NCBI GenBank assembly: GCA_947628225.1
Contig: CANQYY010000005.1
Coordinates: 1 to 64,000, forward strand
DNA: 64,000 bases
Source: an uncultured Lachnospiraceae bacterium
GTDB taxonomy: Bacteria > Bacillota > Clostridia > Lachnospirales > Lachnospiraceae
Direction: 5' to 3'
The notes under the pieces were generated by a model, which did no database searches, was not told where the DNA came from, and saw only the letters and a program-made list of their open reading frames with translations. The translations under genes and the position numbers were made by a program. This document shows, piece after piece, positions 56,408 to 61,449 of the stretch (the stretch's first letter is position 1; every line of letters starts with the position of its first letter).

Positions 56408-57571
56408 TTACTCCTGATGATATTTTTTCAAAATCCGTTCAATCCGCTCTGTCGGATTCAAATATTCAGCAATCGAGGCGTCGTGATTCAGGGTATCAAT
56501 CAAAAGGGCGATATATTTGCTCATATCCACGTCAATATAATAGCTGCGCTCTAAGAGCTCCCTGGGCTGATAAACAAGATTTGTAGTCATCAGGCGGTAA
56601 ATCAGTCCGCTGTCAAACGCCTCGTCAAATTTTTTCAATCCGTTAGTGAAAAGGCCGAAGGTAGAAGCGACGATAATCCGGTTTGCCTTTCGGCGTTTTA
56701 ACTCGGTGGCAACATCAATCATGCTTTCACCGGAAGAAATCATATCGTCAATAATAATAATATCCTTTCCCTCTACATCAGAGCCTAAAAATTCATGGGC
56801 GATAATCGGATTGCGCCCCTCCACGATTTTTGTATAATCTCTCCGCTTATAGAAAGTACCTACGTCAATACCTGCCACATTGCCAAAGTATATGGCGCGT
56901 CCCATGGCGCCCTCATCCGGACTGATAATCATCATATTCCGGGCATTCATATGAATGTCCGGTACGTGCTGCAAAATCGCCTTAATAAACTGATAGGTGG
57001 GCTGTACGGTTTCAAAGCCTTTCAGGGGAATCGCATTCTGGACCCGCGGGTCATGGGCGTCAAAAGTAATAATATTCTCCACTCCCATATTCGTCAGTTC
57101 CTGAAGCGCCAGCGCGCAGTCAAGAGATTCTCTGGAGCTGCGTTTGTGCTGCCTGCTTTCATATAAAAACGGCATAATAACAGTAATTCGCCTTGCTTTT
57201 CCGCTGATAGCGGCAATAACACGTTTCAGATCCTGATAATGGTCGTCCGGCGACATATGGTTGATCTGGCCGCAGACCTTGTAGGATAAACTATGATTGC
57301 AAACATCCACGAGCAGATAGATATCTTTTCCTCTCACAGATTCATTCAGGATCCCCTTAGCTTCGCCGGAGCCAAAACGGGGGCAGACGGCGTCGATAAT
57401 GTAAGAATCCTTTTTGTAATTCGTAAAATGAATGGATGTTCCCGGATTGGTTTCATTCCTCCATCCGACGATATAGTCGTCTACCTTTTTCCCGATTGTC
57501 CTGCTGCTTTCCAGGGGAATGATTCCCAGGTCCCCGTAAGGGATAGTCTGTGATAAGTCTTTCTGGCTCAT
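56408..57571 (-). CDS. prs: ribose-phosphate pyrophosphokinase, long form
   Basis: A 387-residue PRPP synthetase homologue, making the activated ribose needed for nucleotides, His and Trp. Features: FDAHDPRVQN (catalytic region), ISPDEGAMGRA, and the PRPP-binding loop IIIIDDMISSGESMID. It is about 70 residues longer than the usual 310-320, with an N-terminal extension and altered flexible loop (YESRQHKRSSRESLD). ATG at 57571 follows GGAGGAAA; a start 15 bases earlier is less likely. Confidence 0.9.
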   Translation of the reverse strand: MSQKDLSQTIPYGDLGIIPLESSRTIGKKVDDYIVGWRNETNPGTSIHFTNYKKDSYIIDAVCPRFGSGEAKGILNESVRGKDIYLLVDVCNHSLSYKVCGQINHMSPDDHYQDLKRVIAAISGKARRITVIMPFLYESRQHKRSSRESLDCALALQELTNMGVENIITFDAHDPRVQNAIPLKGFETVQPTYQFIKAILQHVPDIHMNARNMMIISPDEGAMGRAIYFGNVAGIDVGTFYKRRDYTKIVEGRNPIIAHEFLGSDVEGKDIIIIDDMISSGESMIDVATELKRRKANRIIVASTFGLFTNGLKKFDEAFDSGLIYRLMTTNLVYQPRELLERSYYIDVDMSKYIALLIDTLNHDASIAEYLNPTERIERILKKYHQE

Positions 57572-57604
57572 TAGGGTTTCCTCCATTTTTTATGTATTTA
57601 TTAA

Positions 57605-58597
57605 TTAATGCTGCATAATTGCCTTTTTCAGCCGGATGTCATCTCCGGTTACTTTTATCAGGGTATAGCTGCTGGTAATGCGGGAAAAAATTCTCTCGCT
57701 GTAACGTTCCCGCAAATCGTCAAAAGAAAGATTGGTGGAAATAATAGTCGATTTGCCGCTGTTCTTCCGCGTATCAATGCAATAGTACAACTGGGAGGAG
57801 GTAAAGCTGTTATTTAACTCGGTCCCCAAATCATCAAGAATAAGCAAATCGCTGTTTAAAATATAAGAAACAGTGGCATCCTTTTCGTCCTGCGCCCTTC
57901 CCTTTTCAAACTTGTACGTTTCTAAAATATCAAATAGCTTTAATGAAGTCAAGTAGACTACCGTATGGGATTTGTCCAATAATTCCTTTGCTATGCAGTT
58001 TGTCAAAAAGGTCTTTCCCACTCCGGTATTCCCATATAAAAGCAAATTATCGTGTCTGGTATCGAAATCCCGGATAAAATTATTTACGGTATCGAGAATA
58101 TTCCTCATATTATCCCGCGGCGTCTGACCGGTAGTTTCTTCTATATAATCGTCCGGGTAAAAATCCAGATGGAAAAAGGAAAAGTTTTCCCGTTCCAGTA
58201 CTTCCTGCAAATTAGACTGCGAATAGAGAAAGTTTACAATTTCTTTTTCAAAGCAGTGGCATTTTACACCGTCAATATAGCCCGTATCCTCGCAGTCCGG
58301 GCATTCATAAACGGGTTTCAGATAATCGGCGGGAAAGCCGTGACGGGTCAGGAGAGATTCCTTTTCCTTTGTAATGGCGTCAATTTTTTCCTGCAGATTT
58401 CCCTCCTTTAAGCCCTTTGTCAGGGATTGTCTGGCATAGGAAACAGAAAGGCTTCGGATGTCGTCATCCAGCCTGCCAATGTCGGGAATGGCGGATAAAA
58501 CTTCCTGATACCGCTTTTGTAAAAGGTGCTTAGTGCGGACCTGCTTATCATAATATCCCAGCATTAATTGTTCGTATTGACTGTTAGTAAGTAACAT
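57605..58597 (-). CDS. DnaC/DnaI-like replicative helicase loader
   Basis: A 330-residue AAA+ ATPase that loads the DnaB/DnaC-type helicase. A coiled N-terminus is followed by a zinc-type cluster (CPDCEDTGYIDGVKCHC) and the ATPase with Walker A GNTGVGKT, Walker B LLILDDLG and arginine finger region RYSERIFSRI. AGAAAGGAAAG lies upstream of the start. It follows the dnaD-like gene on the same strand, matching primosome gene pairs in Firmicutes. Confidence 0.9.
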   Translation of the reverse strand: MLLTNSQYEQLMLGYYDKQVRTKHLLQKRYQEVLSAIPDIGRLDDDIRSLSVSYARQSLTKGLKEGNLQEKIDAITKEKESLLTRHGFPADYLKPVYECPDCEDTGYIDGVKCHCFEKEIVNFLYSQSNLQEVLERENFSFFHLDFYPDDYIEETTGQTPRDNMRNILDTVNNFIRDFDTRHDNLLLYGNTGVGKTFLTNCIAKELLDKSHTVVYLTSLKLFDILETYKFEKGRAQDEKDATVSYILNSDLLILDDLGTELNNSFTSSQLYYCIDTRKNSGKSTIISTNLSFDDLRERYSERIFSRITSSYTLIKVTGDDIRLKKAIMQH

Positions 58598-58623
58598 AGG
58601 CTTTCCTTTCTCTTATTTATAGA

Positions 58624-59730
58624 CTACGATTCCCTGGTGCGGAGGAGCTGTTTTTCCAAATTGCTGTACTCGCTTTTGGAATAATTCCGCTGCGGAAAAT
58701 TCTGAAATTGATTCCGGGCGGCAATGACCTTCTTCCGGTCGGAGGAGTTCCGTTTTTTCCGCTGGAAGGATTCGTCGCATTTTTCAACATCTTCGAGGGA
58801 AACGACCTGTTTTTCATGCCAGTCCTTCAAAATCTTTGATACATAGTGGAGATTGGTATCCCCGGTCTGTAAAACCGTACGTTTACAGGCTTCCTTTATA
58901 ATGCTGTCGGAAAAATGGTAGGCGTTCCAGCTGTCAATAATTTCCCTCTCGGCAGGCGCCAGACCCCGTTTGATGCCGAGGGCTCCGGCTACCAGAGAAT
59001 AGGCGCCGCTGAATCTCTCGGATTCCTCTCTGGCCTCCTCCGGCGTATGGATTCCCTGCTTCGCCCAGCTAATGCCGATAGCCTCAATATACCGGGGCTG
59101 CTTCTTTCCTTTTTTTATTGCCGTTTCATATAAGGTAACTAAAAGTCCGGAAGAAAAACCGATATCGCACATGAAATATAAGATAAGCTGTAAATGTGCC
59201 GGGGAGACCGGCGTTCCCAATAACGCCTCCACCCGGGTAATGGTTTCTTCTATTTCAACATCCTTTGTCAATGCCTCTGCCTGCAGAGGAGTATAGGTAT
59301 GCTTGTCCGGCAGATTGATTTCGGCGGGTTCCTCCGCAGCATGATTCATGGAGCCCGGCTTTTGCGTCCCGTAGGCGCTATCGTCAGCCAAATCGGCGAC
59401 GGACTCCGGCGCCGGCCCTTCTTCTGCCGTGGAGGGCGACGCATCGCAGAGGAGAATCCGGGAAATTTCGCCGTTTTCTTCCTGCAGCTGCAAAAGCCCT
59501 TCCCGATTCCAGTAACGCAGCGCGCGCAAAATATCATTTTCCGTGCATTCCATCAAATCGGCCAGCCTGGTAACAGACCACTCTCTCTCTCCCGGATGTT
59601 CACAGACCATTTTAAGATACAGATAAACCTTGACAAAGTTGCCGTTTGCCGACGGCATATAAGTACGGATAAAAGAATTCGGTATCTGTGTATATCCGCT
59701 CCCCCGCGCTCCTGTTATAGTAAACCCCAT
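58624..59730 (-). CDS. DnaD/DnaB-domain primosome protein
   Basis: A 368-residue replication initiation protein. The N-terminal winged helix (YTQIPNSFIRTYM ... FVKVYLYLKMVCEHPG ... TRLADLMECTENDILRALRYWNREGLL) is the DnaD type, and a DnaB_2/DnaD-like C-terminal domain follows (about 220-300; REIIDSWNAYHFSDSIIKEACKRTV). It remodels DNA to admit helicase and loader at origins or stalled forks. The start is uncertain: ATG at 59730 or 59754; the frame is open further upstream to 59847. DnaA-like boxes lie upstream. Confidence 0.85.
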   Translation of the reverse strand: MGFTITGARGSGYTQIPNSFIRTYMPSANGNFVKVYLYLKMVCEHPGEREWSVTRLADLMECTENDILRALRYWNREGLLQLQEENGEISRILLCDASPSTAEEGPAPESVADLADDSAYGTQKPGSMNHAAEEPAEINLPDKHTYTPLQAEALTKDVEIEETITRVEALLGTPVSPAHLQLILYFMCDIGFSSGLLVTLYETAIKKGKKQPRYIEAIGISWAKQGIHTPEEAREESERFSGAYSLVAGALGIKRGLAPAEREIIDSWNAYHFSDSIIKEACKRTVLQTGDTNLHYVSKILKDWHEKQVVSLEDVEKCDESFQRKKRNSSDRKKVIAARNQFQNFPQRNYSKSEYSNLEKQLLRTRES

Positions 59731-59873
59731 TCCTGCGATCCATTCCTTTCTCATACAGCAGCCAATTCTGTTTTGCTGCAACCTGTTCTTGCACACCGAG
59801 TATATCATAAAGAAAATGGAGTTGCAAATGGGGCAGAAGGTGTACATTTGCTGTAGAAAAGAGGTGTTGACAA

Positions 59874-60065
59874 TGTGGATAATGTGGATAGTATATATAC
59901 GTCCGTACTATTTTGGTAGAAAAAGAAAAGAAAAGTAACGATTTTACATGGGTTTGCAGATTTAAAAAATTAAAATAAATTATTCACAAATTTTTCTTGA
60001 CAAAAAACTATCCACAGCTGGTTCATTCGACAGAATGTTGATAAGGCTGTGGATAATGTGCATAA
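59874..60065. promoter_or_regulatory. cluster of six DnaA-box-like sequences between dnaD-like gene and murC
   Basis: Boxes read on the plus strand: TGTGGATAA (59874-59882) abutting TGTGGATAG (59883-59891), TTATTCACA (59980-59988), CTATCCACA (60008-60016), and TGTGGATAA (60048-60056) abutting TGTGCATAA (60057-60065). Two are perfect TTATCCACA boxes on the minus strand and one fits TTATNCACA. The DNA between 59930 and 60010 is very AT rich. The layout suggests control by DnaA of the divergent or adjacent genes, or a DnaA-titrating or unwinding site. Confidence 0.7.
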
Positions 60066-60066
60066 A

Positions 60067-61449
60067 TTAGCTGTTTAAAAGGCTCTCGCCAATCTCTACA
60101 ATGTTTCCGGCGCCCATAGTTATCAACAGGTCGCCGTCGACTAAATTTTTTAAAATAAATTTTTTAATTTCTTCAAAATCCGGAAAATAATACACTTCCT
60201 TACCCAGGTTTTCCAGTTCCTCTTTCAGGTTCCGGGAAGAAATATCCCCGGGATCTTTTTCCCTGGCGGCATAAATATCGGCAAGGATAACCTTATCGGA
60301 AAGAGAAAGAGCTTTGGCAAAGTCCTTTAAAAAGGCTCTCGTTCTCGTATAGGTGTGGGGCTGGAAAAGACACCAGAGCGTATTGTGGGGATATCGTTCG
60401 GCGCAGGCCAGGGCCGCTTTGATTTCCGTGGGGTGATGGGCGTAGTCATCAATAATAGTAAAGCCGTTTTTCTTTCCTTTATATTCAAATCGACGGTCGG
60501 CGCCGTGAAAAGCACTCAGGGCATTTTGAATGACCGTTTTTTCTATTCCGTATAGAGAAGCAAGGGCGAGGCACGCCAATGTGTTGGAAATATTATGGGC
60601 GCCCGCCACATTCAGAGAAAAATGTGCCGCTTTTTCCTGATTTACCAAAACATCAAAGCTGCCGCAGCCGAGTTCATCATAGGAAATATTCCCTGCCGTA
60701 AAATCCGCTTCCTTATTTTCAACCCCATACGTCAGTATCCGGCAGGAAAGATCTTTTATGATCTCTTTATAATTTTCAATATCGGCATTGATGATAAGAG
60801 TGCCGCGCGCCGGTATCCGTTTGGCAAATTCCCGGAAAGAATGGCGGATATCGGCAAGATCCTTAAAGAAGTCCATATGGTCTTCTTCTATATTAAGAAT
60901 AATTCCGACTGTAGGGAAAAATTGTAAAAAGCTGTTTGTATATTCGCATGCCTCGGTAATAAAGTGCTCCGAGTGGCCGATGCGGATGTTTCCGTTAATG
61001 GCGGGTAAAATGCCGCCTACGGAAATCGTGGGGTCAAGGCCTGCTTCCAAAAAAATATGGGAGGCGATAGAGGTAGTGGTGGTTTTTCCGTGCGTGCCGG
61101 AAATAGCGATAGCGGAAGAATAATTTTTCATAATCTGTCCTACCATCCTTGCCCGCTCCATGATCGGAATGCCCAGAGCCCTTGCCTGCTGCAACTCGGG
61201 ATTGGTAGATTTTACCGCCGCCGTGTAGACTACCAGGGCAATGTCATCTGTAATATTTTTTTCTGCTTGTTCATATACTACTGGTATGCCAAGGGATTCT
61301 AAATGCTGGGTAATTTTGCTTTCCTGCCGGTCGGAGCCGGTAATGGTAAAGCCCATACTGTGCAGCAATTCGGCAAAGCCGCTCATGCTGATGCCGCCAA
61401 TGCCGGTAAAATGAATTTTGCAGGGCCGTTTAAAATCAATGTTATACAT
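60067..61449 (-). CDS. murC: UDP-N-acetylmuramate--L-alanine ligase
   Basis: A 460-residue cytoplasmic ligase adding L-Ala to UDP-MurNAc in peptidoglycan synthesis. N-terminal HFTGIGGISMSGFAELLHSMGF binds the UDP substrate, ISGTHGKTTTTSIASH is the ATP site, and EACEYTNSFLQF, DDYAHHPTEI and FQPHTYTRTRAFLKDFA are Mur-ligase signatures. AGAAAGGTG lies before the start. It ends two bases from the last DnaA-like box. Confidence 0.96.
   Translation of the reverse strand: MYNIDFKRPCKIHFTGIGGISMSGFAELLHSMGFTITGSDRQESKITQHLESLGIPVVYEQAEKNITDDIALVVYTAAVKSTNPELQQARALGIPIMERARMVGQIMKNYSSAIAISGTHGKTTTTSIASHIFLEAGLDPTISVGGILPAINGNIRIGHSEHFITEACEYTNSFLQFFPTVGIILNIEEDHMDFFKDLADIRHSFREFAKRIPARGTLIINADIENYKEIIKDLSCRILTYGVENKEADFTAGNISYDELGCGSFDVLVNQEKAAHFSLNVAGAHNISNTLACLALASLYGIEKTVIQNALSAFHGADRRFEYKGKKNGFTIIDDYAHHPTEIKAALACAERYPHNTLWCLFQPHTYTRTRAFLKDFAKALSLSDKVILADIYAAREKDPGDISSRNLKEELENLGKEVYYFPDFEEIKKFILKNLVDGDLLITMGAGNIVEIGESLLNS

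Follow-up and report, generated by a model that had tools for sequence, protein, structure and literature searches.

The 219-bp gap between murC and dnaD in the analysed window, a 64,000-nucleotide stretch of DNA from an uncultured Lachnospiraceae bacterium, carries a dense array of DnaA boxes and is likely to be a DnaA-controlled regulatory region, including the promoter, of the dnaD-dnaI primosome operon. This reading is based on linkage of the array to dnaD across the order, on a conserved promoter at a fixed distance from the boxes, and on the array having stayed with dnaD where a gene has been inserted upstream. A first-pass annotation had suggested three functions for the site, of which a DnaA-regulated promoter is best supported on these grounds; DnaA titration may be an added or side effect of the array, and an unwinding region is contradicted.

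Boxes and promoter between murC and dnaD

The genes around the array lie on the minus strand in the order murC (60067-61449), dnaD (58624-59847 as the longest open reading frame, encoding a DnaB_2/DnaD-domain protein), a dnaI/dnaC-like gene for an AAA+ helicase loader (57605-58597) and prs, in agreement with the setting originally proposed, namely a dnaD-dnaC(I)-like operon beside murC. DnaA boxes were called as sequences with no more than one mismatch to TTATCCACA, and seven such boxes, two of them perfect, are present in the gap. The six boxes claimed in the first-pass annotation are therefore real but too few, the seven being joined by a box with two mismatches (59865-59873) and by one inside the murC coding sequence (60120-60128), both of which are members of the predicted array.

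The proximal group, on the minus strand, comprises TTATGCACA at 60057-60065, immediately 3' of the murC stop codon, the perfect box TTATCCACA at 60048-60056, which abuts it, and TTATCAACA at 60036-60044. Two inverted boxes on the plus strand follow, CTATCCACA at 60008-60016 and TTATTCACA at 59980-59988. The distal group, again on the minus strand, consists of CTATCCACA at 59883-59891 abutting the second perfect box, TTATCCACA at 59874-59882, and this pair is extended to an abutting triplet by the two-mismatch box TTGTCAACA at 59865-59873, which has a counterpart at the same position in most members of the genus. Both perfect matches had been recognised previously, as had the very AT-rich stretch, which has a GC content of 20% between 59917 and 60000. 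The murC-internal box at 60120-60128 (TTATCAACA) is on the plus strand.

The density of boxes is, as claimed beforehand, far above chance: when the 219-bp gap was shuffled 5000 times with dinucleotides preserved, it yielded 0.12 boxes on average and never more than three, against the seven observed, and elsewhere in the window no 212-bp stretch contains more than two. Abutting pairs (no more than one mismatch in 18 positions) occur twice in the 2.28-Mb genome, both times in the murC-dnaD gap. The DnaA protein of the source genome has the Bac_DnaA_C DNA-binding domain.

Downstream of the distal triplet is a predicted dnaD promoter, made up of a -35 element, TTGCAA (59822-59827, minus strand), a 17-bp spacer and a -10 element, TATACT (59799-59804, minus strand), with the upstream TG of an extended -10, both elements being conserved in the genus alignment. 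The last box with no more than one mismatch ends 46 bp upstream of the -35 element in the source genome, and the distance to the start of the -35 element is 44-47 bp in several other genera, but not in all. No box with one mismatch or fewer overlaps either promoter element. Since the dnaD start given by the ORF caller (59847) is upstream of this promoter, the true start is probably 59754 or 59730, ∼100 bp downstream.

Two further features of the locus were observed. A TAC-N7-GTA motif occurs twice, at 59843-59855 and 59906-59918, 63 bp apart and on either side of the distal triplet; the repeat is partially conserved in the genus and is perhaps the site of another regulator. In addition, the murC-dnaD-dnaI-prs run (56408-61449) is on the minus strand with positive local GC skew on both sides, so that this essential operon is probably transcribed head-on to replication.

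Conservation of the array and its linkage to dnaD

Spacing of the boxes is near-identical across ∼27 species of the genus, which answers favourably the check on conservation in close relatives that had been proposed. Read from murC towards dnaD, the boxes are found at offsets 0 (inverted, within murC), +63, +72, +84, +112 (inverted) and +140 (inverted; at this offset in most genus members), followed by one to three distal boxes at +237, +246 and +255. With occasional single boxes missing, these offsets recur in all 11 relatives of a named collection and in almost every locus of the same genus whose upstream region could be read, two sets that overlap in that some loci are the same contigs; the genomes compared are related, and the counts are accordingly not independent. 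The distal boxes are shifted by 1 base in one subclade, and at a single locus (L039) the proximal boxes are kept while the distal part is rearranged.

Conservation of the murC-internal box can be separated from that of the protein. The isoleucine codon beneath it, in the motif LLITMGAG, reads ATA at 53 of 57 loci, which are related and hence not independent events, yet span many families, whereas ATA accounts for 22% of the other isoleucine codons in the same pieces of murC. Protein-coding constraint is on this codon use an unlikely cause, and the comparison shows selection on the putative box at synonymous sites, that is, at the level of DNA.

Outside the genus, the gap contains an abutting pair of 9-bp boxes at 28 of the 38 dnaD loci compared in other genera and families of the order. 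When the search was extended to the class, dnaD turned up in most Clostridia. Nevertheless, the array was rejected as a class-wide feature of dnaD and is order-specific in this sample, the 24 dnaD-dnaI loci from other orders having at most one box each and never murC directly upstream. Two genomes within the order in which murC is not upstream of dnaD likewise have no boxes, and none was found between the two genes at four loci where little or no sequence separates them (L055, L062, L069 and L073), an absence that is partly trivial, since such short gaps leave no space for a promoter. At locus L068, a gene for a regulator-like protein of 236 amino acids has been inserted, on the opposite strand, between murC and dnaD; the boxes are still found ∼270 bp upstream of dnaD, and murC no longer has its internal box. 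Judged from the boxes remaining with dnaD at this locus, and from the lack of boxes where murC abuts dnaD, the array tracks dnaD.

These observations bear on the idea that the array lies before dnaD by chance, and serves as a titrating or remodelling locus that limits free or active DnaA as opposed to controlling dnaD. The high density of boxes away from oriC that is expected of a titrating or datA-like locus is indeed present, near-consensus boxes being more numerous per 220 bp than in the oriC region of the source genome, which surrounds dnaA (G000 C20:14500-17300, L044) and has few of them; furthermore, six clusters outside the B. subtilis oriC are described in PMC5295017 as jointly delaying initiation. 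However, what the array follows is the dnaD promoter and not a position on the chromosome, the distance between dnaD and dnaA in relatives ranging from 45 kb to 1.26 Mb, a fixed distance from a promoter would be needless for a pure sink, and the boxes remained with dnaD at the locus with the inserted gene. Titration as the sole function is therefore considered improbable.

The AT-rich stretch adjoining the box cluster is a feature that would suit an origin of replication, or else an additional unwinding region. The GC-skew analysis that had been proposed as a check for replication start at the array was conducted, and found the sign switch at dnaA, on another contig (C20) of the source genome; the 140-kb contig that carries the array has positive skew throughout, with a local dip over the minus-strand operon and no switch at the array. 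Similarly, in relative G096 the switch is at the dnaA region only, and in single-contig or near-complete relatives the distance between dnaD and dnaA varies widely, being ∼45 kb, 138 kb, 250 kb and 1.26 Mb. A simple scan for DnaA-trios beside the boxes found none, a result of little weight given that the dnaA locus itself yielded none in the same scan. The skew and the variable distance from dnaA rule out an origin or unwinding region, a reading that is left with next to no probability.

A predicted murC terminator that shares two of the boxes

Part of the proximal group and one inverted box coincide with a predicted intrinsic terminator of murC (60001-60057, minus strand), in which a hairpin extending from 60057 to 60007 is followed by a T run. 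The first-pass annotation had missed this overlap, as it had the -35 and -10 elements of dnaD. The boxes at offsets +72 and +112 form the arms of this hairpin, 60048-60056 being within the 5' arm and 60008-60016 within the 3' arm, and the box at 60036-60044 is within the loop. The predicted fold has a free energy of -19.8 kcal/mol (z -5.1). Among 24 genus sequences, 98.5% of the cells at hairpin pairs are paired, compared with 29-44% in slid controls, and 18 two-sided changes were counted, a number inflated by the kinship of the sequences; they include A-U to C-G at the final box position in 7 of the 24. The terminator did not appear in a standard terminator scan because its loop is longer than the scan permits, and an Rfam search of the window at the gathering threshold returned no known RNA element.

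A single segment of DNA thus apparently serves as both DnaA box and terminator stem. The hairpin is predicted at most loci of the family and is absent from several other families (L075, L077, L081 and L082) in which the tandem boxes are still in place, which suggests that the boxes may have come first and the terminator have formed over them. The same loci bear on the idea that the proximal boxes are nothing other than terminator arms and the remainder AT-rich noise, devoid of DnaA function. While 60048-60056 does pair with 60008-60016 in a terminator hairpin, and compensatory changes occur within the box, this idea leaves the distal triplet, the other boxes and the murC-internal box unexplained, and tandem boxes are retained in other families without such a hairpin. 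Terminator arms as the whole explanation were rejected on this last ground, and are regarded as very unlikely.

Proposed control of dnaD and comparison with known systems

If the gap is a DnaA-controlled promoter region, DnaA would be nucleated by the abutting head-to-tail boxes and would assemble on the proximal group and the distal triplet, ∼-215 to -273 and ∼-73 to -99, respectively, from the transcription start inferred near 59792 (minus strand), with the assembled protein determining how strongly the extended -10 promoter (59799-59827) fires. Since DnaD and the loader protein work with DnaA at oriC, DnaA control of dnaD would feed initiator activity back onto the amount of helicase loader, closing a loop.

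Activation of the dnaD promoter is slightly preferred over repression, given that the distal triplet is upstream of the promoter, at a fixed distance and without overlap. The DnaA of B. subtilis is an activator of sda, acting from boxes upstream of it, and a repressor of several other promoters (PMC4447404). DnaA could conceivably act mainly as a repressor here too, the dnaD promoter being shut either by a filament that spreads from the array or by looping between the proximal and distal groups; this version falls within the probability given to DnaA control of the promoter as a whole, and is itself possible but doubtful. Filament growth should be favoured by abutting boxes. Conversely, the -35 and -10 elements are free of called boxes, and the distance between proximal and distal groups differs between genera with no constant helical phase seen across them, which speaks against a fixed loop.

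A more elaborate version of DnaA control, in which DnaA on the terminator-arm boxes gates readthrough from murC into dnaD as well as firing of the dnaD promoter, would make a feedback circuit throughout this order of gut bacteria, with initiator activity setting loader supply and DnaD in turn restraining DnaA assembly. B. subtilis DnaD is known to inhibit cooperative DnaA binding (PMC5295017). As a whole this circuit is speculative and, at present, rather unlikely.

Other DnaA-box sites were noticed. One, again stereotyped, is upstream of hpf, encoding a ribosome hibernation factor, and secA (L144:1449-1518, corresponding to C7:10805-10874 of the source genome), with boxes at 0, +40, +52 and +61 in the source genome; the site is present also in relatives L114, L117, L119-L125, L127 and L129, and a GTAG repeat resembling the TAC-N7-GTA motif follows the hpf boxes. 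In another order of the class (L155 and L163-L168), abutting DnaA boxes are located between a dnaB-like replicative helicase gene and a gene for an FAD-dependent oxidoreductase. Together, the dnaD-dnaI array and the hpf-secA site lead to the prediction that common gut Clostridia have a DnaA regulon. Beyond B. subtilis and E. coli, little is known of how helicase-loader supply is coupled to initiation.

DnaA-controlled promoters are already known; in open-licence papers nothing was found on DnaA boxes at murC or dnaD in Clostridia, and the dnaD-dnaI target, the stereotyped, order-wide geometry of abutting boxes and the double use of box sequence in a terminator stem are seemingly undescribed in that literature. 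The array resembles datA and DARS1/2 of E. coli in being a box-rich locus outside the origin. Those loci alter which nucleotide DnaA carries, with IHF taking part at datA, whereas the array is defined by its linkage to the dnaD promoter. The B. subtilis sda promoter (PMC4447404) likewise has several boxes upstream of a promoter outside oriC. However, binding of DnaA has been shown for sda and is predicted for the dnaD array; the latter also differs in having a helicase-loader operon as its target, boxes that abut head to tail, and one pair that forms a terminator stem. The B. subtilis clusters outside oriC (PMC5295017, citing Okumura 2012) are similarly dense, in a Firmicute and away from oriC, but have other neighbouring genes, whereas throughout an order the dnaD array accompanies the same promoter. 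Finally, dnaB and dnaQ belong to the DnaA regulon of C. crescentus (PMC8203912), a parallel in that boxes lie upstream of replication genes, although the targets there are a helicase and a polymerase subunit, as opposed to the helicase loaders of Firmicutes here, and both phylum and box layout differ.
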